Positions 4,418 through 48,684 of a stretch of 64,000 nt of DNA are shown in pieces. Made by a program: the position numbers and the translations under genes. The stretch is from Zanthoxylum bungeanum (Eukaryota > Streptophyta > Magnoliopsida > Sapindales > Rutaceae). Within the stretch, counting starts at the first letter, position 1, and the number at the start of each line of letters is the position of its first letter. Below the pieces are notes generated by a model that saw only the letters and a list, made by a program, of their open reading frames with translations, had not been told where the DNA came from and did no database searches. The stretch covers positions 1 through 64,000 of the forward strand of contig SKCR01017749.1 in the NCBI GenBank assembly GCA_019454045.1, written 5' to 3'.

Positions 4418-4679
4418 TCAACATCTGTCCCCTAGTTCTCGGTTCCAACGAGCGTACGAGTTGGTGCCGGGAACTACATAAATCAGAAATGTGTTGATCG
4501 ATTGCCAGGTGGTTGATCCTCGGAATTGTACAGAGAACTGCCATGGTGTCAACTTTGGCCATCCTCAATGCCTTCTCATGGTCTGTCCTCAAGCTAGTGT
4601 TAGGCACTCGGTGGGACGTAACCCGACCCCGAGGAGAAGGAACAAAGCATTCGGGGGAACCAGTCCAGCCCTAATCTGA

Positions 4680-5040
4680 TGGAATAATACAGTCTCAACG
4701 GAACGAATCCAGCCCCGATCTGGTGGAATAATACAGACTCGGCGGAATGAATCCAGCCCCGAGCTGGTGGAATATAACAGACTCGGCGGAACGAATCCAG
4801 CCCCGAGCTGGTGGAATATAACAGACTCGGCGGAACGAATCCAGCCCCGAGCTGGTGGAATATAACAGACTCGGCGGAACGAATCCAGCCCCGAGCTGGT
4901 GGAATATAACAGACTCGGCGGAACGAATCCATCCCCGAGCTGATGGAATAATACAGACTCGGCGGAACGAATCCAACCCTGAACTGGTGGAATAATACAG
5001 ACTCGGCGGAACGAATCCAGTCCCTCACTGGTGGAACCTT
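4680..5040. repeat. 44-bp tandem array in the 3' UTR of the Tat element
   Basis: About eight copies of a 44-base unit follow head to tail, each with the words ACTCGGCGGAACGAATCCAG and CCCCGAGCTGGTGG. Central copies are nearly identical and edge copies diverge. The unit is not a multiple of three and has no minus-strand stop in any frame, so it makes long spurious frames of 93 to 171 codons. Tandem arrays in the 3' UTR are a known feature of Tat/Ogre-type elements and a known source of satellite DNA. Confidence 0.9.
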
Positions 5041-28688: not shown

Positions 28689-29044
28689 TGTAACATTCGA
28701 TAATCTCGACTACTATTACATAATAATAGAAATTATGTTTGAACATATATATACTCATGAAATAATACGATGTTTCACTCCGGACAGCCTATGGTATTTG
28801 AGCCATAATTTTTTCATACGATCTCCAATTTTTATAAACATTATATCTCAGAAAGCTAAGACGAAACCTACAACTTCTACATTTGATATTTTTCCAAATT
28901 TGAAACAGGAGTAGGTCAAAAATGTAACTCACAAATGAGGATGAATAGTAACTACTAACATATCTAGAGAATTCCACATTTCTCTCAAAAATTGTGATTT
29001 TTCTTTAAATCAAAATATTAAAAATTAGCCAAATTAGCCCCTAC

Positions 29045-29052
29045 TATAAATA
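29045..29052 (+). promoter_or_regulatory. Candidate TATA box in the Tekay-type LTR
   Basis: CTACTATAAATAAGG lies about 350 bases into the LTR and is followed by a leader-like AG-rich tract. The matching place in the other LTR (about 22675) reads CAATAAATAAGG and has lost the core. Confidence 0.5.
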
Positions 29053-30575
29053 AGGAGAACTATTCACCTATCCTCAACATTTTGAGGGAAATAGAGAGAG
29101 AAGTGAGAAGAAAGAAGAAAAGAAGAAGAAGAAGAAAGAAGAAGGAAAGAAGGGGAAACAAATACAAATCCTCCCATAACAAGCTAAAAAGAAGAAAAAC
29201 AATCATGAGAGACTTGATAGATGAAGGAAATCAAATGAAATTAGGTAAGGTCAACTTGACCCAAATCTTGGATTGAAATTTTTTGATGATATGATGCTAT
29301 GTTGAGGATAGTAACATAGTAGGAATTGCATTTAGTGGCATATTGAACATGGAAATTGATTGTATTAAGAAATGTCTAAATTTTTAGAAATTCTAATGTT
29401 GAGCTAAAGAAAAGTTATGAAGTTGGAAGTGTATTTTGATGGTGGAATATTGCTTTAACATACATGAATATTGTAGTTTAAAGAAGAGCTTGTATGAAGG
29501 TTATGGCGTGAGGGTGTTGGAGATGCATTTGAAAGAATTGGACATTGAAGTGAAGATGATTATGCCTGAAAACAGGTGAGTGTCGCGACGCTAATAGGCT
29601 AAGGTCGCAACGAGCAATAAAATGGTGGCCTCTGTTTTAGTTTTATCGTGTGAGCATCGCAACACCCAACTCCCAGCGTCGTGATACGAAACATAGGAAG
29701 TTCTCTGCCTCAGCCTGCTCGAGTGAGCGTCACGACGTGACGCGCAAAGCTTGTCATCGTGATGCGATACAAATGAAACTTTCTGCCTCAACCCAACCTG
29801 TGTGAGCGTCGTGACACGCAACGTCTGGCATCGCGACACGTGGCCATTTCTCAGGATTAATATTTAGCTAATTTAGTTTCAACTCAGGATAATAGAGACC
29901 ACCCAAAAGTTTTCGTATCATTTTATATTTACATATAATTTATCATGTCACAAACGTAGAACATCGTATAGCGACGATAGTTTCGAAGTATATTCCACGA
30001 TTTGTATTTCAATTAAATTACCCATCAAATGTCATTGAAGGAACCATAAATTCCTTCGGCGAAGTGAATTAATGCTAGCGGGACTCCAAATCAGTGAGTG
30101 GACACTATTTCCTTAAATTGATTTTTCATTGTATTATTTTTAAATATCAGACTTACTTTTCCGTATTTAGGGCATTAGCCAAGTTTACTTTCAAATATAT
30201 TTTTATTAAGAAGGTTTTGAGAAATGATTTAGAAAAGTGATAATTACAAAAGCATGATCTTATGATTTAGAGGCATGGGGAAAAAGCTACCTCAGTATGT
30301 AACTTGATTCAGATATAGAATTGACAGATTTACATATCGTGTGCACACGCAGTTCAGGACTAGGGATGACAGATGCCCCTAGATCATAGATTTAGAGTCT
30401 GGAGGGTAGCATAAATCCGCACCCGACTTAGATTTGTGGCTGGGTGACGGCGATATGTAACACCCCTAGACCCTAGTTTCAAGGACATGATAGTGGCATG
30501 AATTGAGGGACGGCGATACGTAACACCCCGTTGTCATGGATTTACACACCTGGCTCTAGTTAGCTGTATGGGTGG

Positions 30576-32606
30576 TGATGAGCGGAAAATATATCAATAT
30601 TTACCGCCCCTTTTACTTAATATTTTGTTTAGTTTCTCGGGTTTGATGAAAGTTTTGATATGTTTTATTTTATTTTACAGATAAAATAATATCGGGACTT
30701 AATGAAATCATTTAGGACGAAATGTGGATCAAATAAGGGCAATTATTGGACTTGATATATTAATTTTGGAGATTGGAAACTTGAAATGGCGTTTTTGACG
30801 AAGTGCAGTTTTGGAAATTCCAGTTTTGCGCATCTGTCGTATTTTGGGCATAACTGTTTACTCAGATATCGGATTGAGCTGATTCAAGATCCAGATTAAA
30901 GAAGACTCAATGTTCTACAACTTTGAAAGAGAACATATTTTCAAATTCTGATGATTTCATGACCGAAATTGATGAACCATACAGAAGTGTGTGGAGTGTA
31001 ATTATTAAAAGTCATTATCAATCATTTTCAAAGCAAAATATTAATTAATAAATAATTAATAAAAATTATCAAATCACCACCAAACAAGATAAGAAATTAG
31101 TGGAGCAATTATGGATTTGGTGGAGTAATTAGTGGATAAATTAATAATGGATTTGGTGGAGAAATTGATTGATGATTTGATGGTGGCAAAATTTTGCCTA
31201 TAAATACCAAGCCATTTCATTTGTAAAATTCATACTTTCTTCTTTGAAATTCTTAATGAATAAATAAGAAGATTGTATCTAGTTTGTTTATTTTTAGTTT
31301 TCAGTAATTAATTTTCAGTTTCGCACTTTCTTTTCTTTACTTTTCAGTTTTTACTTTCCGAAATTTACTTTTACGCACAATACTTTTCTTTTCTTTAATT
31401 TTTCAGTTTTTACTTTTCAGTAATGAGGAGGTAACTCCCCCAGCTAGGGTGAAAGGTAATTCTTTTACTGTTACTATTTAGATTAATCTCCCTTAAAAAT
31501 AATATATTCACTATTTAAAATATTGACTTAAAAAGGATACCGCCAGATTGGTCGGTTGGTAATTCATTTTAATCTGATTTAAACCTGACTAATAAAGGAT
31601 ACCGCCAGATTGGTCGGTTGGTAATTTAATTTTGGATCCGCCTTTATGGCTGGTTGGACTTAATTTGACTTAATCAGGTTACCGCCTATATGGCTGGTTG
31701 GAAAAAGAATCACAAGTTTATATATTATTTTATGGGAGATATCTAAATTAGTAGTAGTAAAAGTAATTCCTTTTACCTTAGCATTTTATTTTATTGTAAT
31801 TTACTTTTCAGTATTTACTTTACCGCATTTTTACTTTATGTCTTTTATTTTCAAGTTTTTACTAGCCCTAGTTATGTGTTGTAACTAAATTAGTTATCTA
31901 GGGTTGTGATGAAATCCAATATCACCGTTTTATAAGGGTTAGATTATAGCTTGGGTAATATAAAGATTTATTTATTGAGTCTTAAACTTAATGCTTTTTC
32001 ATTAACTGGCCATTAATAAAATTGATCTGGTAAATCTAAAATGAACTAGACATAGGGATTTTAGGTTTCAGCCTTAGACTCAATAGCCCACGATCTTCCT
32101 TGAGGATAGATAACCCTTTAATAGATTTCCTTACAGGATAGGAATATACCTGTCGGGCGGGGGTAGCCATAATTGGAACTTAAACTTAATGAATCCAGAT
32201 AATTTGGTTGACATAGACATATGGTTCAATTGGGTTAAACTGGATATTTGTGTCTGACCATCGACAGAGGCTTACACATAATTTAGTGTTCCAGGTTAAT
32301 AAATCATATATTACCCAACTTTAAGATAACCACTTCATCTTTAAAATGATATTGGAAGAAATCACAACCCTAGATAGTTTTTAATATTAAATTTTCTTAA
32401 AATCTACTTTCGAACAATGTTATTTACTTGTTTTTAAATTTAGAATCGTCACAATTTCAAATCAATCAAACAACCTGTTAGATACTAGTAATCATTTGAC
32501 CTCATAAAATTAATAGATTAGATATTAAGTCCTCGTGGGATCGATATTTTTATACTACTTGAACGATACGTGCGCTTGCGTTATACGTGTGTGTTTACGC
32601 CGGTCA
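30576..32606 (+). repeat. Solo LTR of the LOG-carrying Athila-like element
   Basis: This 2031-base LTR begins TGATGAGCGG and ends GCCGGTCA, with perfect GGTGG duplications on both sides (30571-30575 and 32607-32611). It lies in the right LTR of the Tekay-type element. It differs from 38812-40843 at only about a dozen places seen by eye. Internal short repeats include two copies of GGATACCGCCAGATTGGTCG (31540-31625) and two related CCGCCT...TATGGCTGGTTGG words. No PBS follows it, so it is a solo LTR and not the 5' LTR of an adjacent full element. Confidence 0.92.
31199..31206 (+). promoter_or_regulatory. Candidate TATA box in the Athila-like LTR
   Basis: GCCTATAAATACC sits about 620 bases into the LTR and is repeated at 39435-39442 in the second copy. 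Both retain a perfect core, which would start transcription about 30 bases downstream. Confidence 0.6.
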
Positions 32607-33350
32607 GGTGGATGACGATACGTAACGCCCCCATGCGTCAGGTTTTTCAGCATATATTTAGATACAAACTTTCAGAAAATAGGTTTTCAAAGATAGATTT
32701 TCGGAAATAAGATTTTTCAGAGATGTGATTTTCAGAATGACTAGTCTAATGAAAGTTTTTCAGAGAAACAGTTTTATGAAATAATTATTTTCAGAAAGAA
32801 AGAAATTTCTAGAAAGAGTTTCAGAAAAAGAGATTTGAGAAGCGCTTTCAAAGAGGTTCAGTTTTTCTAGAAATATTTTTGAATATAGAAAATTAAAATT
32901 TTTAATAAGTATTTCAGTTTCCGTTTAAAACTGTCCACTCACTAGGTCGTTCAAACGATCTAACCCCCCACTCATAGTTTCCTTGTTTTACAGGTTACTC
33001 GAAGGAATAGCTCAAAAGGATGGATACTGATGGCAGTCACTAGGGTGTTCGGTCCACCAGGTCAAGTCAGAGACATAGTTCAGTTTAGTCAGAGTCAGGA
33101 AAATTCATGTTATATAGTAAAATTTACATATGTAATGCATTATAAGTGTTCACTGTCAGAGTTGTAATGTGTAGTGCAATTGAGTACTTAGTATGAAAAG
33201 TATTATGCATTTATATTGTTGAGTGAGGCAATGTTCCCATGCATGAGTTTAGATATGAAATGAGATTAACAGTTGTCAGAAAGTCAGAGGGTTAGGGGGA
33301 TAGGACGGCCTATTCCATGCCGATAGCATCTTCGAATTGGGGATGTTACA

Positions 33351-33914
33351 GATATGATCCTCAAAGTATATACGGACTCTGATTTTTAGGTGGATGTCGA
33401 TTCTAGAAAATCAACATCTGGATCAGTGTTTACCCTAGGTAGTGGGGCCATTATGTGGAGGAGCATAACGAAATTTTATACTGCTAACTCCACCATGGAC
33501 GCTGAGTATGTAGCAGCTTGCGAAGAAGCTAAGGAAGCAGTCTGGCTCCGAAAATTCTTTAGAGATCTGGAAGTTGTTCCAAATATGGATAAACCATCTA
33601 GAAGTTGTTCCAGATTTGGATAAACCACTCACACTTTATTACGATAATACTTGTGCAATGGCGAATTCCAAAGAACTAAGAAGCCACAAAAGGGGAAAAC
33701 ATATAGATAGAAAATATCATCTCATCATGAAGATAGTGCAGAGATGAGACATTTCTGTCACGAAGATTGCCTTCGTAGAGAACCTGGTCGATCTGTTTAC
33801 AAAGACCTTATCGGAAAAAGTGTTTGAAGGTCATCTAGTGTGTATATGATTACGTGATATTTCCCATTTACTCTAGTGTAAGTGGGCGATTATTGGGATA
33901 TATGCCTAGAGCTT
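33351..33914 (+). pseudogene. Ty1/copia RNase H and 3' LTR start, left copy
   Basis: It reads VDVDSRKSTSGSVFTLGSGA, AEYVAACEEAKEAVWLRKFF, then, after a 31-base duplication that shifts the frame, TLYYDNTCAMANSKELRSHK and ENLVDLFTKTLSEKVFEGHL. These are the RNase H domain and the end of copia pol. A polypurine tract AGTGGGCGA precedes the LTR start, TATTGGGATATATGCC (33891), mutated from TGTTGGG. The LTR is cut after about 24 bases. Confidence 0.9.
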
Positions 33915-34699
33915 TTAACTACAACAGAGCATCAGAAGAAGCAATGAGACTGCGTGTTTTCCCATATTCCTTGAAGGACAGAGCTAAATCTTGGCTACAT
34001 TCACTACCAGCAGGTTCTATCACAACTTGGAACACTTTAGCCACCAAATTTCTTGCAAAGTACTTTCCACCAGCCAAAACTGGAAAACTGAGGAATGACA
34101 TCACATCCTTTGTACAACAAGATTCAGAATCCCTATGCGAAGCTTGGGAAAGGTACAAAGATTTACTCCGGAAATGTCCTCACCATGAAATTCCAAAGTG
34201 GCTACAAGTTCAGACCTTCTACAATGGACTTTCTGGAATAATGAGAACCACAATCGATGCTGCTGCTGGAGGAGCTTTAATGGCGAAAGGAGAAGATCAA
34301 GCCTGGGACTTAATTGAAGAAATGGCCAACAACAATTCCTTGTGGCCAACAGAAAGGAGCATGATCCAAAGAATTGCAGGAATTTATGAAGTTGGAGCAA
34401 ACACAGCAGTGAATACCAGGCTGGATCAGATATGCAAATGTCTAGAAACACTTAGCACGCAAGTTGTGAACACCACTGGATCCACAAGTTCACCATATGG
34501 AGGAGCACCAGAGTCAAACCAACTTAAAGAAACGGTGAATTATGTCAACAATTTCAACAGGCAGGGGAACAATCCATATTCCAACACCTACAACCCAGGG
34601 TGGAGGAATCATCCCAATTTTTCATGGAGCAACAATTCAGGCCAACAGCAGAACTATTCACCACCTGAATTCCAGCAACAGAACAAAGGCCATGAGTAG
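33915..34699 (+). pseudogene. Athila-type gag, N-terminally truncated
   Basis: From the junction it reads FNYNRASEEAMRLRVFPYSL, SWLHSLPAGSITTWNTLATK, FLAKYFPPAKTGKLRNDI and WERYKDLLRKCPHHEIPKW, the conserved Athila/Tat capsid region. It ends with the Asn/Gln-rich NNFNRQGNNPYSNTYNPGWR. A TAG stop at 34697 separates it from the following frame, which is in the same register. The zinc-knuckle cysteines normally placed before NNFNR are not present, which fits an internal deletion. The apparent start at 33854 lies in copia LTR DNA and is accidental. About the first third of gag is missing. Confidence 0.9.
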
Positions 34700-35875
34700 G
34701 CAAATAAATCAGGAATAACAGAAGTGTTGACCTACTTGAAAAAGATGGAAGCAAAACACGACTCTCAAGCAACAAGATATGATACTATATTTCAAAGCCA
34801 TTCAGCCTCTATCAAAGCACTGGAGAATCAAATTGGACAACTGGCAAATGCTCAGAGTTACAGACCGCCAGGTACCCTTCCTAGCAACACAGAGCCAAAT
34901 CCAAGAAACATGGGGAAGGAGCAATGTCATGCCATTATGTTAAAAAGCGGTACTGAAATCAACAAAGATGTTGGAGTCAATTCAACTGCTAAGGAAGTTC
35001 CAAAAGAAACAAATGTTAACTTGATGCCTTTCTCTATTTTCAGGAAATTACAGATTAGAGAAACAATGCCAACTTCAGTCTCACTGCAACTTGCTGATAG
35101 AACGCTCGTATTTCTGAGAGGCGTAGTTGAGGATGTGCTGGTCAAGGTTGACAAATTCATTTTCCCAGCAGATTTTATTGTCCTTGATATGGAGGAAGAC
35201 GCAGACGTGCCAATCATCCTTGGGAGACCATTCTTGGCTACAGGTCGAACCATTATTGATGTACAAAAAGGAGAATTAACCATGAGGGTACAGGACCAAG
35301 AAGTAACATTCAATGTTTTCAAGGCCATGAATTTCCCAGATGATGAAAAGAAAGAGGAATGTTTCAAACTCGATGTGATACACAGTACCATTCAGAACTC
35401 CAATGCAATGCAAAGTTCTACTGACAAACTTAAAACATGTCAATTGCCTATGGAGCCTAAAGATAAAACGTCTTTTGTACTGAAAGAGCCAATTCTTGCA
35501 CTACAAGCAACAGAAGAGAAAAAGTTCCACCAACTCAACGAATTGGAGGAATTTCACAATCAGCCTTTTGAGGATGCCAAATTGTACAAAGAAAAGGGCA
35601 AGAAGAGACATGATGAGAAGTTAGTGCGCATACAACTGGAACCAGGGCAGAAGGTACTGTTAAACAAATCAAGGGTGAAATTCTTCCCATGGAAGCCAAA
35701 ATCACGGTGGTCAGGTCCATTTGTGATCACCAAAGTTTTACCAAATAGAGCCGTTGAGATACATGATCCTGACGCTAACAAAACTTTCAAGGTTAAAAAC
35801 AAGAGCGTCAAGCACTACTGGGGAGAATCATTTGATCGACAAAAAGAAAGTGTTACACTTTCAGATCCAGCTTAA
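34700..35875 (+). pseudogene. Fused protease remnant and integrase C-terminal domain in one frame
   Basis: The frame runs on from gag after one TAG. It has a short coiled coil (LTYLKKMEAKHDSQATRYD), a protease missing the Asp-containing active site (KETN joins directly to VNLMPFSIFRKL, where CDLGAS-type residues would be expected), the conserved later part DADVPIILGRPFLATGRTII, then a jump to the end of integrase: FEDAKLYKEKGKKRHDEKL, SRWSGPFVITKVLPNRAVEI, SVKHYWGESFDRQKESV. RT, RNase H and the integrase core are gone, yet the joint keeps the frame. Either the deletion was in frame by chance or a fused Gag-like protein is still made. Confidence 0.88.
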
Positions 35876-36013: not shown

Positions 36014-36592
36014 ATGGAAGAAGCTCTCGCAAATCTTCGCAAACAATTTCATTCTCTCCCTCAAAAATCTCTGATGAAAGTTTACAAAGCTCGCTTGGAA
36101 CGGATGAGGTTATTGACAATCCATGGTATTCCTAATGATATTCGTTGGGTAATTGAAGCACGAGTCCGATTGGCAGGTGAGTCTTCTGACTCTTTTATTT
36201 CACATCTGCCTGGTTTTGGAAGAAGCACCTATGCAAAGAAACATAGAGCTAAGCAAATGGGTGTTTGTTTCAAATGTGCACGATTTAATTGCAACACTCG
36301 TTGTCGATCTTTAGGAATGGTGTCTGATAATCGCGAAGACAAAATTAAATTCATTAGGGATGGCTTGAGTAAGGAGTCTTTAGATGATATATCTTTAACT
36401 CTTGAGACGCATCCCAGTGGATATGTTCACATTGCCATTCGCAAATTACATACACAATTCCAAAAAGAAAGACAACAATTAAGTCTCGGGAATCTGACTC
36501 AAAAAGACCCTGTTTGCCAATTTATAAGAAAATTGGATGAGAAGCTTGTCCCTGACGCATGGACGTCAATCAAGCCGCTACTTTTCTTGTAA
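36014..36592 (+). CDS. Accessory frame of unknown function in the Athila-like element, 192 residues
   Basis: I do not recognise the family. The frame starts at the ATG of 36014, 17 bases after a TTTTTACAG splice-acceptor-like site. It encodes a mostly basic protein with a Cys cluster C85-x2-C88-x4-C93-x3-C97 (CFKCARFNCNTRC), following a Lys-rich AKKHRAKQ stretch, and an acidic/amphipathic C-terminal half. There is no signal peptide. The stop TAA overlaps a possible donor GT (36589); an intron 36589-36663 would replace the last residue and add about 14 mostly hydrophobic residues ending at 36706. A decayed relative lies at 44135-47110 on the minus strand in the other Athila-like element, at the same place after integrase, so it is a lineage-level feature. 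The Cys pattern could bind zinc or nucleic acid; this is inference. Confidence 0.7.
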   Translation: MEEALANLRKQFHSLPQKSLMKVYKARLERMRLLTIHGIPNDIRWVIEARVRLAGESSDSFISHLPGFGRSTYAKKHRAKQMGVCFKCARFNCNTRCRSLGMVSDNREDKIKFIRDGLSKESLDDISLTLETHPSGYVHIAIRKLHTQFQKERQQLSLGNLTQKDPVCQFIRKLDEKLVPDAWTSIKPLLFL

Positions 36593-36663
36593 ATATTATA
36601 TCTCTTTGTATTTTCCTAATAATTGTGATTTGTTTTGTTGTTTTCTTTTATTTTCTCCGACAG
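36589..36663 (+). other. Candidate intron at the end of the accessory frame
   Basis: The donor CTT|GTAAAT and acceptor CCGACAG|GATCC enclose 75 T-rich bases with a branch-like CCTAATAAT. Splicing would remove the stop at 36590 and extend the frame to 36706. Confidence 0.4.
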
Positions 36664-36822
36664 GATCCAGACCTTTTTGACTATCACGATATTATTTCGC
36701 TACTAATCGTCCTTTGGAAGATACTTGTGCTATTATTACTCACCCTTTTTCAGGTACTATAAATTCAGCCCGTCATTGCACTTTTGAAGGCATCCAGAGT
36801 TGAGAAAGAAATACATAAAAAC

Positions 36823-37314
36823 ATGGAAGCCACTTCAAGAAGACGAGTTGAAAACATTTGTGTGTTTTGCGGTAGTAGTGTTGGTACTAAGCCACAATAC
36901 ATAGAAGCAGCACATGAATTGGGTCGAGTCTTAGCTACAAGGAATATGCACTTAATATATGGCGGGGGCAATCTTGGACTAATGGGGATCATTTCAAAGG
37001 CCGTTCAGGAAGGAGGCAGTCATGTCTTGGGAATCATCCCAAAACCCTTGGCAGAGGCAAATCTTATTGGATCATCAAACGGAGAGGAACTGATCGTGCC
37101 AGGTATGTCTGAACGACTGGTAGAAATGATTAATCGTGCTGATGCTTTTATCGCTTTGCCAGGTGGCTTGGGTACATTGGAGGAAATTTTTATAGTTCTA
37201 TCTTGGGCGAACCTGAACATACACCAGAAACCGCTTGGACTGTTTAATGTTGATGGATTTTATGATTTTCTTTGTGTGTTTCTTGATGATGCCAGAAGAA
37301 ATGGGTTCGTGTAA
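36823..37314 (+). CDS. LOG-like cytokinin riboside 5'-monophosphate phosphoribohydrolase, captured in a retrotransposon
   Basis: LOG enzymes release active cytokinin bases from their riboside monophosphates in one step, in the cytosol and nucleus. From the ATG at 36823 the 163-residue frame has ICVFCGSS (12-19), YGGGNLGLMG (46-55), the family Arg in MSERLVEM (R98) and the signature PGGLGTLEE (113-121, catalytic Glu), then LNIHQKPLGLFNVDGFY. Two deviations are visible: the residue after R98 is Leu, where canonical plant LOGs have Lys, and the Tyr/Phe of PGGYGT is Leu. They could mark a distinct LOG-like subfamily. No intron interrupts it, whereas plant LOG genes have several, so it probably came from a spliced transcript. 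A TAA at 37312 ends it about 53 codons early. It lies between the accessory frame and the Athila 3' UTR, in the element's sense orientation. A host gene fragment inserted by recombination is less likely. Confidence 0.9.
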   Translation: MEATSRRRVENICVFCGSSVGTKPQYIEAAHELGRVLATRNMHLIYGGGNLGLMGIISKAVQEGGSHVLGIIPKPLAEANLIGSSNGEELIVPGMSERLVEMINRADAFIALPGGLGTLEEIFIVLSWANLNIHQKPLGLFNVDGFYDFLCVFLDDARRNGFV

Positions 37315-37476
37315 AAACCTATGAAAGAACTCATCTTCACTGCCAGAACTGCTCCGGATCTAATAGACCAACTCATAGCCTATGAACCACAAGTTGACCC
37401 TATCCTTTCAAAAATAAATTGGTTTGAGGACGATCGTGGTAAGAGGCGTAGAATTAATCTGGATCTTAACCTTTAA
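37315..37476 (+). pseudogene. C-terminal remainder of the LOG-like frame after one stop
   Basis: After the TAA the same frame stays open for 53 codons (PMKELIFTARTAPDLIDQL, DPILSKINWFEDDRGKRR) and ends INLDLNL at a TAA (37474-37476). This matches the place and length of the normal LOG C-terminus, so a single nonsense change (probably AAA or GAA to TAA) explains the break. The basic KRRR followed by LDLNL resembles a nuclear signal plus an EAR-type LxLxL motif. Confidence 0.75.
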
Positions 37477-38811
37477 TTTCCTGTAGATTTCAGCTAACCA
37501 GGTACGACCTTCTTAACTCTCCTTTTACTGTTTAAGACATTGGGGACAATGTCTCATTTAGGTTTGGGGGAGGGAATTAGTTGATCAGTACCTTGTTTTT
37601 AGTTTGTGTGTTGTTTTTATTTTTAGTCCAAAATTTTTCGAAAAATACAAAAAAATTGAAATTTTTTCAAAAATTACAAAAATATTTTGTGTTTTTGTGT
37701 TTTTATTTTGACTAAAAAGGTGAAATTGGTAAGAGATAGCCGTGTAAGGAGTTTCCACTCCTGAGACGTATCTCCAACCTATTTTCAAAACAAGTTAATT
37801 TTTGTTTATTTCATTTTAAATTATTTAATTGGTGAATTCTCCATAACACTGACTAAAATGGATCTTCCTATGCTCAGTTGGCAGGTATTATCAACATACA
37901 TGGTAACATACGGACATGAGCTATAATTGAAAAGTTTGTAATATTCTGTGCTCTAGTTTAATTGGAGGAAACATCTCAAAAAGCAATGGAGTAAAAAAAA
38001 AAAAAAAAAAACGTCTGAGATCCGAGTTATTAAGTCTGTAAGGGTGTTTTAACACCTAGTGCCCTAAAACCAACTGGTTTGGGAGTCATTGGCCTAAAGC
38101 TCGTTACATGGATCAAAGATGCTGCCAAAAAAAATATATATATCTGAAGTCTGGGTAATTAAGTCCGTAGGGGTGTCTTAACACCTGGTGCCCTAAAGCC
38201 AACTGGTTTGGGAGCCACCGACCCAACACTCGCTATATAGATGAAAGATATTGTATATAAATAAAAAATAGAGAAAAAAGAAAGAAAAAATCAGAAAAAT
38301 CAGAAAAAAAAAAATTTTACTCCATTACTATAAAAAGGTGTGAAATCTAATAGAACCTTAGGACAAAAATATTATTCTCTTATCAATTGCACTTGTGACT
38401 GTTGTGCGCAAAAATGAGTTGATTATTATTTTGCTGGCTGTGTATATGGAGAATGGTAAATATAATCGGAGAATTTACTTATTCGGTAGTTTAGAAAGAA
38501 ATAAAACAACTAGTAACTTGGAGTAAAAGTTTCACTTGATTAGTCATTAACTTCTTTATTCTCTTTTCTCTTGTCTTTTTGCTTTTGTGTGCATTAGTTT
38601 TAACTAACTTTTTACTTTTGTAAAACATTTGTGGGTATCGTTGCTGTAAACCCTCACGAGACTACAACTCGTCCACTAGGGACACCTAGGGGTTTAAAGG
38701 CTTGTTGCATACGCTAAATGCAACCGTGATCCCTACGAAAGTGGCTTAGTTTAATTTTAATTTTAATTTTTTGTTTTGCTCGAGGACTAGCAAAATGTTA
38801 GGTTTGGTGTG
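37477..38811 (+). other. 3' non-coding region and polypurine tract of the Athila-like element
   Basis: It contains the Athila-type phrase CATTGGGGACAATGT (37539-37553) with GGTTTGGGGGAGGG after it, an A-run (37992-38010), and two copies about 129 bases apart of a unit holding TTAACACCT, GTGCCCTAAA and CCAACTGGTTTGGGAG. A perfect 12-base inverted repeat AATGGAGTAAAA/TTTTACTCCATT (37985-37996 and 38315-38326) encloses that pair. The end CTCGAGGACTAGCAAAATG, then GGTTTGGTGTG, adjoins the LTR as the polypurine tract. Confidence 0.8.
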
Positions 38812-40843
38812 TGATGAGCGGAAAATATATCAATATTTACCGCCCCTTTTACTTAATATTTTGTTTAGTTTCTCGGGTTTGATGAACGTTTTGATATTTT
38901 TTATTTTATTTTGCAGATAAAATAATATCGGGACTCAATGAAATCATTTAGGACGAAATGTGGATCAAATAAGGGCAATTATTGGACTTGATATATTAAT
39001 TTTGGAGATTGGAAACTTGAAATGGCGTTTTTGACGAAGTGCAGTTTTGGAAATTCCAGTTTTGCGCATCTGTCGTATTTTGGGCATAACTGTTTACTCA
39101 GATATCGGATTGAGCTGATTCAAGTTCCAGATTAAAGAAGACTCAAAGATCTACAACTTTGAAAGAGAACATATTTTCAAATTCTGATGATTTCATGACC
39201 GAAATTGATGAACCATCCAGAAGTGTGTGGAGTGTAATTATTAAAAGTCATTATCAATCATTTTCAAAGCAAAATATTAATTAATAAATAATTAATAAAA
39301 ATTATCAAATCACCACCAAACAAGATAAGAAATTAGTGGAGCAATTATGGATTTGGTGGAGTAATTAGTGGATAAATTAATAATGGATTTGGTGGAGAAA
39401 TTGATTGATGATTTGATGGTGGCAAAATTTTGCCTATAAATACCAAGCCATTTCATTTGTAAAATTCATACTTTCTTCTTTGAAATTCTTAATGAATAAA
39501 TAAGAAGATTGTATCTAGTTTGTTTATTTTTTAGTTTTCAGTAATTAATTTTCAGTTTCGCACTTTCTTTTCTTTACTTTTCAGTTTTTACTTTCCGAAA
39601 TTTACTTTTACGCACAGTACTTTTCTTTCTTTAATTTTTCAGTTTTTACTTTTCAGTAATGAGGATGTAACTCCCCCAGCTAGGGTGAAAGGTAATTCTT
39701 TTACTGTTACTATTTAGATTAATCTCCCTTAAAAATAATATATTCACTATTTAAAATATTGACTTAAAAAGGATACCGCCAGATTGGTCGGTTGGTAATT
39801 CATTTTAATCTGATTTAAACCTGACTAATAAAGGATACCGCCAGATTGGTCGGTTGGTAATTTAATTTTGGATCCGCCTTTATGGCTGGTTGGACTTAAT
39901 TTGACTTAATCAGGTTACCGCCTATATGGCTGGTTGGAAAAAGAATCACAAGTTTATATATTATTTTATGGGAGATATCTAAATTAGTAGTAGTAAAAGT
40001 AATTCCTTTTACCTTAGCATTTTATTTTATTGTAATTTACTTTTCAGTATTTACTTTACCGCATTTTTACTTTATGTCTTTTATTTTCAAGTTTTTACTA
40101 GCCCTAGTTATGTGTTGTAACTAAATTAGTTATCTAGGGTTGTGATGAAATCCAATATCACCGTTTTATAAGGGTTAGATTATAGCTTGGGTAATATAAA
40201 GATTTATTTATTGAGTCTTAAACTTAATGCTTTTTCATTAACTGGCCATTAATAAAATTGATCTGGTAAATCTAAAATGAACTAGACATAGGGATTTTAG
40301 GTTTCAGCCTTAGACTCAATAGCCCACGATCTTCCTTGAGGATAGATAACCCTTTAATAGATTTCCTTACAGGATAGGAATATACCTGTCGGGCGGGGGT
40401 AGCCATAATTGGAACTTAAACTTAATGAATCCAGATAATTTGGTTGACATAGACATATGGTTCAATTGGGTTAAACTGGATATTTGTGTCTGACCATCGA
40501 CAGAGGCTTACACATAATTTAGTGTTCCAGGTTAATAAATCAATATATTACCCAACTTTAAGATAACCACTTCATCTTTAAAATGATATTGGAAGAAATC
40601 ACAACCCTAGATAGTTTTTAATATTAAATTTTCTTAAAATCTACTTTCGAACAATGTTATTTACTTGTTTTTAAATTTAGAATCGTCACAATTTCAAATC
40701 AATCAAACAACCTGTTAGATACTAGTAATCATTTGACCTCATAAAATTAATAGATTAGATATTAAGTCCTCGTGGGATCGATATTTTTATACTACTTGAA
40801 CGATACGTGCGCTTGCGTTATACGTGTGTGTTTACGCCGGTCA
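38812..40843 (+). repeat. 3' LTR of the LOG-carrying Athila-like element
   Basis: This 2032-base partner of the solo LTR at 30576-32606 has a TATA core at 39435-39442 and is followed by GGTGG (40844-40848). Confidence 0.92.
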
Positions 40844-41588
40844 GGTGGATGACGATACGTAACGCCCCCATGCGTCAGGTTTTTCAGCATATATTTAGAT
40901 ACAAACTTTCAGAAAATAGGTTTTCAAAGATAGATTTTCGGAAATAAGATTTTTCAGAGATGTGATTTTCAGAAAGACTAGTCTAATGAAAGTTTTTCAG
41001 AGAAACAGTTTTATGAAATAATTATTTTCAGAAAGAAAGAAATTTCTAGAAAGAGTTTCAGAAAAAAAGATTTGAGAAGCGCTTTCAAAGAGGTTTAGTT
41101 TTTCTAGAAATATTTTTGATTATAGAAAATTAAAATTTTTAATAAGTATTTTAGTTTCCGTTTAAAACTGTCCACTCACTAGGTCATTCAAATGATCTAA
41201 CCCCTGCACTCCTAGTTTCCTTGTTTTGTAGGTTACTCGAAGGAATAACTCAAGAGGATGGATACTGATGGCATTCACTAGGGTGTTCGGTCCATCAGGT
41301 CAAGTTAGAGACAGAGTTCAGTTTAGTTAGAGTCAGGAAAATTCATGTTATATAGTAAAATTTACATATGTAATGCATTATAAGTGTTCACTGTCAGAGT
41401 TGTAATGTGTAGTGCAATTGCGTACTTAGTATGAAAAGTATTAAGCATTTATGTTGTTGAGTGGGGCAATGTTCCCATGCATGAGTTTAGATATGAAATG
41501 AGATTAACAGTTGTCAGAGAGTCAGAGGCTTAGGGGGATAGGACGGCCTATTCTCTGCCGATAGCATCTTCGAATTGGGGATGTTACA
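40844..41588 (+). repeat. Second copy of the Tekay-type LTR end
   Basis: It repeats 32607-33350, from GGTGGATGACGATACG to GGGATGTTACA. The first 270 bases match closely, and differences become frequent further on. Confidence 0.88.
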
Positions 41589-42128
41589 GATATGATCCTC
41601 AAATGATATACGGACTCTGATTTTTAGGCGGATGTCGATTCTAGAAAATCAACATCTGGATCAGTGTTTACCTTAGGTAGTGGGGCCATTATGTGGAGGA
41701 TCATAAAGCAATTTTGTAGTGCTAACTCCACCATAGACGCTGAGTATGTAGCAGCTTGCGAAGAAGCTAAGGAAGCAGTCTGGCTCCGAAATTTCTTTGG
41801 AGATCTGGAAGTTGTTCCAAATATGGATAAACCATCTGGAAGTTTTTCCAGTTTTGGATAAACCACTCACACTTTATTACAATAATACTGGTGCAATGAC
41901 GAATTCCAAAGAACTAAGAAGCCACAAAAGGGGAAAGCATATAAATAGAAAATATCATCTCATCAGGAAGATAGTGCAGAGATGAGACGTTTCTGTCATG
42001 AAGATTACCTTCGTAGAGAACCTGGTCGATGTGTTTACAAAGACCTTATCGGCAAAAGTGTTTGAAGGTCACCTAGTGTGTATAGGATTACGTGATATGT
42101 CTCATTTTCTCTAGTGTAAGTGGGCGAT
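41589..42128 (+). pseudogene. Ty1/copia RNase H, right copy
   Basis: It has the same content as 33351-33890: RKSTSGSVFTLGSGA, STIDAEYVAACEEAKEAVW, TLYYNNTGAMTNSKELRSHK and FVENLVDVFTKTL, with the shared frame-shifting duplication. It ends in the AGTGGGCGAT polypurine tract just before the LTR. Confidence 0.9.
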
Positions 42129-44134
42129 TGTTGGGATATATGCCTAGAGCTTCGTGTAATGTAAACAAAATTATTTGTTATAAAATAAAAGATGCATTGT
42201 TCATTTATCAATTGTTTTGATTTAAATCGCATATTGTAAATTATCCTATTTACCCTTGATTACTTATGTGCCTTCGGACTTAGTGTATGTGTTTCATACA
42301 CAAGAGGATTTAAGTCCGGATTTAGTAATTTAAAATAGTCCATAGAGAGCAAACAAAGTGGGAATTTTGTTTGTGGTTTATCTATATGTGCGGTCCATTC
42401 TATAATTATATGACGACCTTGATCCGGGATCGTCCATGCGGTGACATGAGAATGAAGGCACCTTATATGATGTGATCATATAGGACTAGACCAAGATAAA
42501 AATGAATTTCTTATAATATCCGTTAATAAAGAAATTCATTTCAAACTACTAGATGGCCAAATATGAATTGATCTGAATCCTGAGTGTACTACGAGCTCCT
42601 ACATGGCAGGCTATGTTCTTTGATTTACAAAGGTGAGGTTGGTGTGTAGCTGAAGACGTTTTACATAGATATGAAGTTTAGTCTTTCTAGCGAGAAGTAG
42701 AGGAGTATCTTCCATAAGGATTGATTCGGTACTTAAACGATTAGAGCACTCGAGTCTTTCTATTATGAAAAGGAAGATTATTATTCATAATGGTTATGAA
42801 TAAATTATTCATTATAATTAATGGTACTTAAGGTGAAAATAGAGGGGTATAACATACATTATGACCAGACTCTAATTATGAGAGACTTATGAAGGGTCAA
42901 TCCGTATGTAATGACTATATTGATAGACATCGACGTAGTTCGGCAGCAACGAGAGTCCAACTTTGAGTTTTTAGTGGAATAACCTAAAGTTAATAATTCA
43001 GAATATTTAATTAAAGAGTTTAATTAATATTCCAGGATTATTGGAGCTTGGAACTGTAAATCCATTTGGTCTCAATGCTAGCTCAATATATTGTAGTAAA
43101 TTAAATATAATTAGATGGTCTAATTACAAACTCACATGCGTTATAATTATTAATATGATTAATAATTAATGACACTCTTGAAAATTTATATTAAATTTAA
43201 TATAAAGTTTTTCCAATATAAGTGGTTATGAGATAATCATTTAATGATTAAAATTTTGTAAATATGAAATTATATTTTATAATTTAATATTGATTTTAAA
43301 TTGACAACTTTTGAAAATGTGATTTTTGAAACTCTTTATTTGAAATTGGTGGTTATATTCTGTTAATAAATAACACACTAAATGTCATTATAATGACATT
43401 TATCAACAAATTTTTTGTTACAAAAAAGGAGGGCTTGGCCGAATTTTTAAAAGGAGAATGAGGGGAACATTTTTTTTTTCTTTGATTACAAAATAATTAT
43501 CCTTAACCTTAACTATAAATAAAGTTTTTTTTTAATCACTAATCTCTCATCTACCAAACCCTAGCCTCATTGTTCTTCTTTTTCTCTCAAGGGTTGAGAC
43601 AAGAGAAAAAAAAAAGAAAATATAGTGTGACTTTTGATCTCTAAAGTGTTTAGTGATTTGGTTTTTTGAGTGAAGCCCACACTTCCATTTATTGATTGCG
43701 AGATATAACACAGAAGGTCATTTGGTGTTGAAACAAATTCTTCATTATTCCTTTCCATAGCGCTACTTTTATAAGTCATTTGTGAGTTGTTTTGTGATAA
43801 TTTTGCCCATAAAATTTGGGAACTCAAAAGGGTATTTTATGGTAGTTTTGGAGTTATTTTGGAGAGATTATATTGTCTAAATTAGTGACAGAAAAATCAG
43901 CAAATAGCTAGCATAAAATAGTGAGATGTGAGCGCTTAAAGGGAGTTTTCGGTGTGCAAAACAATCCTGTTTTTGGGCTGTTGTTCAGGATTGGAAAAAT
44001 AATTAAAAATAGAAGGAAAACAAGTCCAAAGGGGCTAGACAGTTTTGGCTAAGAAGGGGAAAAGGCAGAAAAATTCTTCAAGGTTGATCATAGTCCTTAA
44101 CACGCTTTCGCCACGCGAGAAATCGTTCCTTACA
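42129..44134 (+). repeat. 3' LTR of the split copia element
   Basis: It begins TGTTGGGATATATGCC right after the polypurine tract and has no coding. The right edge is set at CGTTCCTTACA (44134) because the next bases (TGCTTCATATCC) belong to the accessory frame of the minus-strand Athila-like element. That edge could be off by some tens of bases. The 5' LTR is not in the window. Confidence 0.65.
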
Positions 44135-47110
44135 TGCTTCATATCCAATTTTCCTACAAATTGTCAAACAAGGTATTTTAAAGTCAGATTCCCGATACTG
44201 TATTGTTGTATTTCTTTTTTTTAAATTGTGTAAGAAAATTACAAATCACTCTATGAACATGTTGTTAGGGTTGGCACTCAGAGTGCCAATCCTGATCGTA
44301 TTTATTTTCGATTCATAAATACGAGCAATTCCATTTTCTATAATATTACTTATTTAATGGTAGCACCTCTTGTCTTTTATACACATATTCGATCTAATTA
44401 CGATTAGATTGAAACTAAATATGGTTTAGTGATAAATGTATATTAGACAAAGACCCTAGGATTTACAATGTAGTGCACAGTTACAACTTAGTTTGTAATT
44501 GACATTGGGAAGCGCACTATAAGATGTATATTCTTAAATAAAGTTCCTGGTCAAGATTTACTAATACGGGTTGGTTAGTAAAATCCACCGAGACTAGTAC
44601 ATGTCGTATTTTATGACTTGGTTCGATGGTTTATCCCAATGAACCATGAGTATCGGGAGACTCGCATAGACATGTAGGTGTTTATTTGATAAACACTAAA
44701 CGACTCACTGAAGATTTCTGAATAGATGGTACACCAACGTCAATAGGAATCTTCTCGAGTTGAGCGAGTATAGTGGTCCTTCGACTTGAGATACCACTGT
44801 GGATATATGAGTTATCCTCCATAATTTGATGGTAGTCACGTCACCGATCTATTTAGATCAGACCTCCGCCTGTTCGTTGGGTGTGGATTGATGCTCATGA
44901 TATCCTGTCCGTATCAAGATAGAATATGTCAGTCCTGTGTACATGGCATAGGCATCCTACACGTGTTTACGATCTAGTAAATCCATGGTCGTGGTATAAA
45001 TTCAGAAATCAGTTCCGAGTGTTATTTAGAGATCGTAAATTGAAAGTCGACTATATTAAATCGAAAGGATTTGATGTTTTTATCTATATCCCAGGTATAA
45101 TATGGATAGCCGGTGACGGAGGGATTATACGTATGCAATGACCTCGACTTGCATAGTTTAGAGAGATTATTCGTGGTCGTCATAATTCATGACTGGGTGA
45201 ATTATGGACACGAAATTAGATTTCGTGACGGATAAACCTAAACTTAGAGAGTCCCACAATATGAAGTGTACTTGTTGAGCACTTGGGCAACACGTTATGA
45301 ATAATATAGATTATTCATAATACTTCATCGGATTAAGTGAGTTAATTCGAATAGTTTAAACGGTTAAACGATGACACATGCATTAGGGGATTTTGGTCAT
45401 TTAATAATTATTGTGTATTTGTATTTGATACATAATTTGATTAGATACACATTAATTAATTTTCAAATGAGATTTTGACACATGCCATTAATATATGTAT
45501 TTGGAATTTAATGTAAATAAAATAAATATAATAATAATTATATAAATTAATTATTTAAATATTTAAACGTTAAATATTTGAATAATTAATTGATAAACTT
45601 TTTCATAATTCTTATGAAAAATGTTTAATTATTATTGGTGACACATGACATGATTTAATTAAACTTTATGTGTGCAAATTTGATTTGTTAACATAAAGTT
45701 TGATTTTGTTTAATTTGATTAAAATGAAAAATGACCAAAATACCCTTCCTACTTACCCTAAGTCGGTCATGACCCTAATTATTTAAGGTAGAAATTTTTT
45801 TTCTCTATCATCTAACACCATGGACGAAAATCCTCTCTTCCAAAAGTTCTCAAATTTGTTTGATGAAACAAAGGAAGAAAGTGAAGGAAAATCAAGAAAG
45901 GCTTAAGGAAATTAGGAGTTCTAAAGGTAATCTTCTATATATCCCTAAACTTAGAATATTAGTTTCTTGTTCTTGATTTACTAGAATGGTTCTAGGGATT
46001 CTTTACTTCTTAAATTGGGGCTTTTGGATATGGAGGATGGATTTGGAAGTGTTGTGCATGTGTGAAGGAGAATTGAAAGATATTATTGTAATATTTGTTC
46101 AATTTGATCATTTGATGATATGTTGACATTCTAGAGTGTTATGACCACTCTTTTAATTCCTATAATTGTTCTTGGGTGATTCATTTGTGGTGACTTTGGT
46201 TGGTGTTAAGATTAATTAGATTAATATTGGAAAATTGTATTTTAAGCATAAAAAATTGATATATTTTACTTCTGGATCAGATCTGGAAATACTCTGCATA
46301 TGGTGATGAAAAATTTATCATATGAATGTATTGGATGTGTTTTGGGTGTTGGAACAATTGCCAGAAATTATTTCGGAGTAGAAATAAGCAAAAACGGTGT
46401 TACCGGGTGACTTTTGAGCCACCGGGTGACTGCTACCGAAACAGTGAATTTGTCACTGTTCGGGCAGCCCATGAACTGCCCTAATACTATTGGGGCTGAC
46501 CTGGGCAACCCTCATGTGTATTAAGTGGTCGGTTCGGTCAAAAATATGTTTTATGCCATTTTGCGGAAAAAACGTTTTCGTAAAGGTTTCGCGATGTTTC
46601 TTAACTATTTATGTCATTATTTGATATCGAATAAATATGTTTAGGTGAAAAATGAATGAATTATTCATATTTGATATTGAATAATTTATTTGGTAATTTT
46701 TAAAGGTTTAAAATTACGCTTTCGACAGAACCGCGCTTCCGCCGCGTCCTTTGCCCAAAACCCCAACACATGCCCACTAGGATGTGTCTCAAAAGTCAAT
46801 GATATATCATCTAAAGGTTTAGTCAAGCCATCTCTAGTGAATTGAATTTTATCTTCGTGATTGTCAGACACCATTCCTAAAGAATGCAATAAGTGTGTAC
46901 GTCTAGCGTGTATAATTATAACAAATACCTAATTGTTTAGCTCTTCATTTATTAGAATAAGTGTTTTTCCCTAGACCAAGCATGTAAGAAATGAAGGAGT
47001 CAGATAACTCACCTGCCAAGCGAATCTCTTACTTCAACGAATATCACTAGGAATACTATTGATTATAAGAAGCCTAATTCTTTTTGGTGCGTGCTTTGTA
47101 AATTTTCATC
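44135..47110 (-). pseudogene. Decayed accessory frame, split by a solo LTR
   Basis: The right piece (47110-46769) matches 36060-36425 base by base in many stretches, for example GGAATGGTGTCTGACAATC and GATATTCGTTG. The left piece (44262-44135) matches 36420-36545 inverted. Stops and indels destroy the frame. It follows the integrase end just as in the younger element. The LOG position would lie further left, where copia DNA now stands, so presence of LOG cannot be judged. Confidence 0.8.
44263..46768 (+). repeat. Solo LTR related to the LARD-like element
   Basis: It begins TGTTAGGGTTGGCACTCAGA and ends ACCCCAACA over 2506 bases, with CATGT (44258-44262) and CATGC (46769-46773) as a one-mismatch target duplication. 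It aligns along its length with the 2.6 kb LTRs at 11412 and 16798 but is clearly more diverged, so it is older or a subfamily. It interrupts the decayed accessory frame. Confidence 0.85.
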
Positions 47111-47329
47111 AGAGTATTTTGAGGGAGAGAAGGAAAATGATTGTAGAGTTTTACAAGAGTTTATCTATGCCTTGATTATAGGGTTTCAATAATTTTAAGA
47201 AATTAAGAAAACCGACTTAGAGTCACGGGGTACCGTTATTTGCTATTTTACTGGGGGTGCAAGTCTCTGAAAAAAAGAAAAAATACTGTAAAAGACAAGA
47301 AAAAATGGAAATTAGACAAAAACAAAAGA
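47111..47329 (-). other. Spacer between integrase and the accessory frame
   Basis: This short T-rich stretch (minus strand) includes CTTTTACAG and TTTTTTTCAG acceptor-like sites. No coding is recognised. Confidence 0.5.
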
Positions 47330-47585
47330 AAAGAAAAGAAAATAACAACTTATAATACATCAATCACATTACACTGGGTTTGAAAGGAAAATAGATTCTT
47401 GAAAACTTGAACACTTCAAAAATGGTTTCAGACGTTGTCTATTTACTTTGAATACATCCCCATCCCTATGATTCTCATTGTCAATAGCTCTATATGGGTA
47501 AACATGCTTCACAATAAATAGACTACTTCATTTGGATTTCAATTTTCCAAGAAATAAATGAAGACGAGAATTATAAAGAATAATT
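47330..47585 (-). pseudogene. Athila integrase C-terminal domain
   Basis: The minus strand reads LYNSRLHLFLGKLKSK, then, in shifted frames, VYPYRAIDNENHRDGDVFKV and NRQRLKPFLKCSSF. This corresponds to the LFPGKLKSRWSGPF...VNGQRLKPF region of gypsy integrases. It continues from 60316 across the Tekay-type insertion. Confidence 0.8.
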
Positions 47586-48684
47586 TGTAACATCCCCGAT
47601 CTGGGATATGTTATCGGCAAGGAATAGGCCCTACTATCCCTTTGAGCCATTGACTTTCTAACTTTGAAACTCATCTTATGTATAAACTCATGCATGGGGC
47701 CATTGCCCAACTTATCGTTATAAATGCATAATGCTTTTTAACTCAAATTCATTTCACATCTTAACTTTAATAATGAACACTTATAATTCTTTTGCATGTG
47801 TATACTTTACTAAACTAATTATATATTACATGACATCTTCTGACACTGACTGTACTGAACTATAACTCGACCTGATGGACCAAACCCTCTAGTGACTGCC
47901 ATCAGTATCCATCCTCTCGGGCTCGTCCTCCGGGAATACCTACAAAATAGAGAAATTGGGACGATAAGTGAGTGGACGATTTAAAATAAAAACTGAAATA
48001 CTATTATGAAAATACTTGGTTCTAAAACCAAAATTCTCCCAGGAAATAGTCTTATATAAAAACTCTTTTCTTGTTTGAAAAATCCAAACTTTTTTTCTGA
48101 ATATCTTGACTGAAATCTCTTTCGTAAAACTTATCTTTTCAGAAAGTCTCTTATAAATATGCTGGTTCTGATTTTTCTTTATTGAAAATATCTCTCTGGA
48201 AAACTAACTCTGAAATCTGTATCTGGAAACTGTTTCTGAAAACTGATCTTTGTCTCTGAAAACCTGATGTCTGAGGACGTTATGTATCGTTATCCCCTCA
48301 TACGCCTAACTAGAGTCAGGAGTGCAAATCCATGACTTTAGTCCGTTACGTATTGCCGTCCCCCAAAGTATGCCACTTCTATCCTTGAAACTAGTGGTCT
48401 TGGGGCGTTACATATCGCCGTCCCCCAAGCCACTGAACTAGAACTGGGAGTGCGGATCTATGCTATCCTCCAAGCTCTGAAACTAGGATCTAGGGGCTTC
48501 TATCATCCTTAGTCATGAACTAGGATATGGGGGAGTTATGTATCGATGTCCCCCCAATCCTCTACATTTGTACATGTTCTATTTGTCAATTCTATATCTG
48601 AATCAAGTTACATACTGAGGTGGGTTTTTCCCTCATGCCTCGAAAACATAAAAAACATGCTTTGAAAATATTTCTTTCTAAAAC

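Follow-up and report, generated by a model that had tools for sequence, protein, structure and literature searches.

Is a plant hormone gene that lies inside a retrotransposon a recent acquisition from the host, or is it part of the element's own equipment? The question is raised by a 64,000-nucleotide stretch of the Zanthoxylum bungeanum genome (contig SKCR01017749.1, positions 1 to 64,000; hereafter the window), in which a first-pass annotation made from the letters had recognised a LOG-like cytokinin-activation gene within an Athila-like element and had read it as a young capture, a mobile hormone-activation gene and an arrangement of which no description was known to it. As detailed below, this LOG looks like a tool of the element and not like a freshly caught hormone gene.

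The LOG frame and its element

The frame (36823-37476, plus strand) encodes 217 amino acids plus a stop (final stop at 37474). Its identity as a LOG is real, since the first 163 residues match PF03641 far above chance (E 2.2e-32, 112.4 bits against a cut-off of 27), and it also matches PF18306 (E 2.3e-17) and carries the PGGxGTxxE motif. As annotated, no intron breaks the frame, which lies in the sense direction between the integrase end and the 3' LTR of a Ty3/gypsy element. The claim of a single lesion near the end held in part: there is indeed one stop and no frameshift, but the TAA (37312-37314) falls at codon 164 of 218, three quarters along and not at the very end.

Upstream of the first LTR, a repeated left flank (28757-30575), which ends with the target duplication GGTGG (30571-30575), has an element-free paralogue at 22382-24932: by blastn, 28757-30570 is 85.6% identical to 22382-24188, and the continuation at 32610-33350 is 87.9% identical to 24191-24932. 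Next comes a plus-strand LTR (TG...CA; 30576-32606) which, judging from the letters at its junctions, has GGTGG at either side and behaves as a solo LTR. It is followed by a first copy of the right flank (GGTGG plus 1.3 kb; 32607-33914), for which no match of 200 bp or longer was found within the family loci L009-L028, and which abuts directly on a 5'-truncated gag remnant (33912-34699, plus strand; PF03732 at E 6.2e-24 on the ORF 33839-34699) whose similarity to other copies begins near 33912. The rest of the interior, all on the plus strand, consists of a fused frame of protease and integrase end without the RT-RNase H-integrase core (34700-35875, from the ORF list), the ORF of NABP, a betaflexivirus-like zinc-finger nucleic-acid-binding protein (36014-36592; PF05515 and PF01623), two splice-acceptor-like sites (36640-36753; pyrimidine tract plus YAG/G), the LOG ORF and a 3' region without long ORF, with a purine run at 37566, that is kept among copies (37477-38811). 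The 3' LTR (38812-40843, plus strand) closes the element, and a second flank copy (40844-42152) again starts with GGTGG.

The near identity of the window LTR to a solo copy nearby, already noticed in the first-pass annotation, is borne out (99.3% for 30571-32604 against 38806-40841), while the two right flanks, both starting with GGTGG, are 95.5% identical (32605-33914 against 40842-42152). Because the same 1.3-kb flank follows both LTRs, the upstream one is not the usual 5' LTR of the window copy. The simplest account is an insertion, then a duplication of the locus, then the loss of one internal region, which left a solo LTR and a 5'-truncated copy. The LTR identity was thus rejected as an insertion date for the window copy, since both LTRs bear the same right flank and this flank is itself just 95.5% identical. 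That the LTRs are closer to each other than the flanks 3' of them may reflect gene conversion, an odd recombination or an assembly effect.

With respect to classification, LTRs, a target-site duplication and gag are found in the window, and L023, a family copy with the full pol order, has RVT_1, RNaseH and rve one after the other, as in Ty3/gypsy elements; the window copy itself lacks an RT. From literature precedent, the element is a putative member of the Athila lineage. Elsewhere in the window, the minus strand of 44098-48682 holds an additional remnant of greater age, with NABP pieces (44098-47160), a flank-like repeat (47583-48682) and no LOG match beside it. Two pairs of long direct repeats are probably the LTRs of other recent elements (11411-14011/16797-19393, 96.3%; 48685-50648/56837-58794, 98.1%), and a tandem repeat with a period of about 44 bp occupies 4651-5036.

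Copies, constraint and ancestry

A PF03641 profile search of the 3.96-Gb genome gave 47331 loose first-look candidates, 150 of which were scored, and all 150 lie above the cut-off, hence at least 150 matches. That the LOG locus might be unique is ruled out by these many copies. A noncoding query from the 3' region (37480-37980, 501 bp) returned, among the 40 matches scored out of 1483 first-look candidates, the window and 39 others at 94-96% identity. LOG is present in 17 of the 20 loci chosen by this neighbouring noncoding DNA (0.7 kb fetched each), which comprise six with an open full frame, two with a full frame and one stop, nine with a shifted or partial frame and three without LOG; L049 and L064 match in an identical pattern, so that a single locus may have been counted twice. 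Moreover, 30 of 36 other LOG loci have NABP on the same strand, no more than 1.8 kb before LOG (the remaining six show none upstream), and the order gag-pol-NABP-LOG-LTR recurs in many copies of the same genome.

The place of the RT core was compared across ten 20-kb stretches. The frame runs on there (residues 104/108 to 383/391) in L015, L016, L018, L021 and L028, and L020 and L023 have about 2.6 kb extra, which in L023 corresponds to RVT_1, RNase H and rve. Some members of the family have pol, some have open accessory frames, and lesions are common. The five copies without the pol core, together with L011 (with a shift) and the window near 35438, suggest a non-autonomous subfamily that kept NABP and LOG.

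Repeat pairs bracketing LOG, which we read as LTR pairs, were obtained in six of the ten stretches, with K2P distances of 0.0094, 0.0140, 0.0262, 0.0325, 0.0325 and 0.0823; the last belongs to the older subfamily L009/L010, and the other five span 0.009-0.033. At a substitution rate of 1.3e-8 per site and year, these distances correspond to about 0.4-1.25 My for the five and 3.2 My for the sixth. The repeat pairs of L013/14, L015/16 and L019/20 are tandem or ambiguous (0.022-0.18), and no LTR pair was obtained for L021/22 among these stretches. In the older subfamily, made of L009/L010 (LOG at 9918 of the 20-kb stretch) and L001, LOG is about 80% identical and no NABP lies upstream. A separate stretch, G000:C23952:418412-429796, carries seven PF05515 (NABP) matches on one strand at a spacing of about 1.86 kb, much like a tandem array.

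To quantify selection, pN/pS was computed on copies with intact frames, frame-broken ones being excluded. At the eight frame-intact loci (those without frameshift) of the 20 chosen by noncoding DNA, the ratio is 0.251 (0.220-0.302) for LOG, with 0.250 inside the PF03641 part and 0.257 outside; over 32 frame-intact copies, it is 0.246 (0.216-0.281). Since 31 of these 32 copies came from an HMM-ranked list, the bias-free part is limited to codons 1-53 and 185-216, where the ratio is 0.397 (0.320-0.493), against 0.169 in the enzymatic part. NABP yields 0.367 (0.323-0.412) over 17 copies, and wrong-frame controls on the same DNA reach 0.67 and 1.31 for LOG and 0.88 for NABP. On these ratios, both LOG and NABP are under purifying selection, and the comparison across copies that had been advised at the outset finds LOG constrained at the unbiased loci.

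The closest LOG relatives (best 120 of 7855) are up to 87% identical to the window protein, and the named ones among those listed (Xanthoceras, Populus, Reevesia, Paulownia, Diplodiscus) are 48-57% identical, while the canonical set consists of the best 120 of 7998 matches found with LOG3. In a tree of 53 rows, including two bacterial ones, the element-type (32) and canonical (19) sequences each form a single clade (99/97), support being 96/95 and 95/94 once pocket columns and tail are removed. The same split appears with FastTree (0.94 and 0.99) on 134 rows, drawn from the 97 relatives (out of 120) of 205-260 aa and, taking one in four, from the 120 canonical LOGs. For the 53-row trees, 30 of the 120 relatives and 17 of the 120 canonical proteins were hand-picked for spread, the host's own LOG genes not being among the rows; in these trees, we did not find the element LOG placed inside canonical LOGs, as a recent transduction would have it. 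The frame is thus related to plant LOGs, as first annotated, its clade standing beside the canonical ones. The youth of its capture has to be given up: one deep clade unites the element-type LOGs named from several genera of plants, with and without the trait columns, so the LOG type is old. The trees indicate an ancient entry of a plant-type LOG into such elements; by LTR K2P, most of the dated insertions are young, but the LOG capture is not. The location inside elements was seen in the copies of this genome and, for the P-numbered relatives, is suggested by their clade; NABP and LOG relatives on contigs of equal size (P0022/P0225, 4511 bp; P0023/P0217, 8723 bp) suggest that these pairs share the NABP-LOG neighbourhood.

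Two other views of this ancestry deserve mention. At face value, an intronless LOG with one stop only, sitting in an element of a family with young LTR pairs, might be a recent retro-copy of a host LOG mRNA that is carried passively; we hold this to be very improbable, given the deep clade, the constraint and the presence of LOG at 17 of 20 family loci chosen regardless of it. Alternatively, the split between canonical and element-type LOGs could be a long-branch artefact hiding a capture from a particular angiosperm LOG subfamily. The element LOGs do sit on a long branch, and LOG8 is the sole canonical row from outside the set found with LOG3, but the split keeps its support under a site-mixture model and when pocket columns and tail are dropped, which makes the artefact rather unlikely. 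It would touch the date of the capture alone and is compatible with the reading that we favour.

Active site, tail and neighbouring protein

Residue roles were taken from a bacterial LOG, in which the prenyl pocket is itself called inferred (PMC4979012). Briefly, Arg99 and Glu122 are catalytic in the Corynebacterium LOG, and the inferred prenyl-group site (Met96, His97, Lys100, Glu125, Trp129) is identical in AtLOG3, OsLOG and CpLOG (PMC4979012). In CgLOG, the counterpart of the pocket Lys touches adenine, and alanine mutants of AMP-binding or catalytic residues (including Lys100) almost lost activity, S19A excepted; M. marinum LOG differs at three prenyl-site positions, and other cytokinins are supposed to be its product (PMC4979012).

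In the window copy, codons 95-99 (M S E R L; 37105-37119) keep the catalytic Arg but have Ser for the pocket His and Leu for the pocket Lys, and codons 120-128 (37180-37206) keep both Glu and the pocket Trp but have Ile for the pocket Glu. At the matching columns, the 32 own-genome copies read MSRLEEIW (29), MSRLEETW (2) or MSRLEENW (1), all with the catalytic Arg and Glu and, in these frame-intact copies, the PGGxGTxEE motif; a further eight copies from loci chosen by noncoding DNA all read MSRLEEIW. The window family has retained the catalytic Arg/Glu but not the full prenyl-pocket pattern Met-His-Lys-Glu-Trp. More broadly, MHRKEEEW is found in 34/34 canonical and bacterial rows, against 7/100 element-type rows, and the remaining 93 have Leu, Ile or Met in place of the pocket Lys. 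Among 97 element-type rows, His, Gln or Thr usually takes the place of the pocket Glu, and Ser or Gln that of the pocket His (retained in a fraction of 0.24), while Trp (0.99), both Glu (0.97 and 0.99) and the catalytic Arg (0.89) are kept. The pocket changed once on the 53-row tree. The model of a relative, P0122 (pLDDT 85.9), has the LOG fold (best PDB match 2a33, TMt 0.95). Since the prenyl-pocket His, Lys and Glu are replaced even though the catalytic residues remain, the reading as a mobile hormone-activation gene becomes doubtful, and the element LOG may have ceased to be an ordinary cytokinin activator. Cytokinin activity could nevertheless survive such a change, since the M. marinum LOG varies at three pocket positions.

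The protein of the element ends in a tail, KRRRINLDLNL (37441-37473, 3' of the premature stop in the window copy), which combines a basic cluster with an LxLxL motif. LxLxL occurs in the last ten residues of 88 of the 120 listed element-type proteins (best 120 of 7855) but in none of the 120 canonical ones (best 120 of 7998), and a basic cluster in the last 22 residues of 107/120 versus 1/120. The tail is predicted to be disordered (residues 203-217 of P0122, pLDDT below 50). In the drawn tree, P0200, P0237, P0157 and P0160 split off before the other 28 rows; all four have a canonical pocket, the first three without and P0160 with an LxLxL-type tail. As canonical-pocket rows, one of them with the tail, branch off first, the tail seems older than the pocket change, and it takes two changes on the tree. 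LxLxL is one of two EAR patterns, and EAR proteins bind the N-terminal part of TOPLESS (PMC9956375, PMC6283911); EAR motifs are also used by pathogen effectors, such as XopD, PopP2 and Jsi1 (PMC8126959). By its motif, the tail is predicted to dock TOPLESS and the element LOG protein is possibly nuclear, though a tail rich in leucine can also come by an LxLxL that does not bind TOPLESS.

Finally, the neighbouring NABP (36014-36592) matches PF05515 (1e-5, 26 bits, cut-off 23) and PF01623 (1.1e-5, 25.8 bits, cut-off 20.9), families whose nucleic-acid-binding proteins belong to carlaviruses and their relatives among plant viruses. It has 192 aa in the window and 182 aa in most listed relatives; at 36560-36592, its frame runs about ten codons past the place of the stop in three of six copies compared. 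At E 0.01 or better, there are 390 relatives, and PF01623 is found in all of the 120 listed (best 120 of 390); of 50 aligned members, 47 match PF05515 and 46 PF01623 at E 0.01. One set (A1) comprised 49 of the 120 listed NABP relatives, another (A2) 41 proteins. Cysteine 88 is invariant and cysteines 85, 93 and 97 nearly so, the cluster following a basic stretch. With the NABP model, which is of low confidence (pLDDT 64.5), 17 of the first 21 viral fold matches bear the name of silencing suppressors, nucleic-acid-binding or RNA-binding proteins from viruses of this kind; the matches are individually weak (best, Fig latent virus 1, E 0.046; none of 36 reaches E 0.001), so that their consistency alone counts. 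A scan of IMG/VR for NABP gave 39 pattern stretches, none of which was confirmed. Regarding expression, NABP and LOG are separated by 230 nt, a gap that contains two acceptor-like sites (last intron base 36663 and 36753), out of nine this strong on the plus strand of the window. Such a site lies at most 220 nt upstream of the ATG in 36 of 38 LOG copies, in the strict ...AG/GATCC form in 23; as the copies are related, this recurrence shows a site conserved between relatives and does not count as independent proof. Applied upstream of NABP, the test failed (1/23 copies).

Competing readings and known systems

We consider it somewhat probable, from the comparisons above, that the window LOG is a decayed copy of a conserved accessory gene, carried by a high-copy, recently active Ty3/gypsy family and remodelled by the element. 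The sequences show that a LOG of plant type entered the elements in the distant past, that it stands in the order gag-pol-NABP-LOG-LTR in this genome, and that it kept its catalytic core while losing conserved prenyl-pocket residues and gaining the disordered basic and LxLxL tail. It may be translated from a spliced RNA through the acceptor-like sites before it, enter the nucleus, and cleave or bind an adenine nucleotide other than iP or tZ monophosphate, and its tail may dock the TOPLESS co-repressor. NABP might blunt RNA silencing, and the two proteins together would be the element's equivalent of viral accessory genes. A bolder form of this reading, which we put forward tentatively and deem rather unlikely as a whole, is a two-protein host-manipulation module in which a virus-type silencing suppressor works with a nuclear, re-specified nucleotide hydrolase bearing a TOPLESS-recruiting tail, convergent with pathogen effectors and shared, by descent or transfer, among several eudicot families.

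The element LOG could instead still be a working cytokinin activator, its pocket changes being neutral or tuning the preference for the N6 group, and the element would gain by driving its host cells in the meristem to divide. The close LOG fold, the kept catalytic Arg/Glu, PGGxGT loop and pocket Trp, and the purifying selection all agree with this, as does the M. marinum LOG, which also differs at pocket positions (PMC4979012). Against it, residues invariant in 34/34 canonical and bacterial rows are replaced together in 93/100, CgLOG alanine mutants including Lys100 lost almost all activity, S19A excepted (PMC4979012), and the enzymatic part is not clearly more constrained than the remainder (0.169 against 0.397 in the HMM-ranked copies, 0.250 against 0.257 at the unbiased loci). 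We regard a working activator as unlikely, though to be taken seriously: the lack of stronger constraint on the enzymatic part at the unbiased loci and the pocket variation of M. marinum weigh slightly in its favour and slightly against the accessory-gene reading. The fold could also be a nucleotide-binding scaffold or decoy devoid of enzyme activity, with the tail as the working part. Both the new tail and the loss, in 93/100 rows, of the pocket Lys, an adenine contact in CgLOG (PMC4979012), would fit, but the catalytic Glu and Arg are kept in 0.99 and 0.89 of 97 rows, which is unexpected if catalysis is dispensable, and this possibility appears quite improbable to us.

Although the first-pass annotation knew of no description of this arrangement, a LOG as an extra ORF is already known. 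Steinbauerova and colleagues reportedly found, in 2011, two Athila-like elements with a LOGL4-like extra ORF. A YgdH/LOG domain is described from two Citrus species, again within LTR retrotransposons, and with less strict filtering from those of Populus trichocarpa (Alvarado-Marchena et al. 2022, PMC9289625), a finding in line with Steinbauerova et al. 2011 (PMC9289625). These Ty3/gypsy cases involve the same domain in the same kind of element, but the section of that report on the LOG domain makes no mention of an altered pocket, a tail, an NABP partner, selection or copy behaviour. In the literature searched, neither the altered pocket nor the tail nor the NABP partner of an element LOG came up in any paper; the active site, tail and partner of this variant look new.

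The comparison with other systems runs along the same lines. Canonical plant LOGs (AtLOG3, At2g37210; AtLOG8, At5g11950) share with the element LOG the type-I LOG fold and catalytic residues, the model being 46% and 41% identical to them, respectively, over the aligned fold, but the element LOG differs in its replaced pocket His/Lys/Glu, its extra basic and LxLxL tail and its intronless state in a mobile element. NABP resembles the cysteine-rich nucleic-acid-binding proteins and RNA silencing suppressors of betaflexiviruses through PF05515 and PF01623, the viral fold matches being weak, yet it is longer (182-192 aa) and carried by a retroelement, and its suppressor role is putative. Orchid Ty3/gypsy elements with an AlkB RNA demethylase likewise have a cellular-type enzyme fixed as an extra ORF; the enzyme is a different one, and its activity was measured (PMC9289625). 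Similarly, the effectors XopD, PopP2 and Jsi1 act in plant cells as foreign proteins that bear a short LxLxL or DLNxxP motif (PMC8126959), while in our case the motif sits on a protein of a retroelement and binding to TOPLESS is a prediction.

Extra ORFs are common in plant LTR retrotransposons and mostly unexplained. With its known fold, readable active-site change, stepwise phylogenetic series and viral-type neighbour, the element LOG makes the role of an accessory gene directly testable. Members of its clade are labelled cytokinin riboside 5'-monophosphate phosphoribohydrolase in public proteomes (e.g., Populus LOGL10 entries), and such labels may make LOG gene families look larger than they are and misdirect work on cytokinins.
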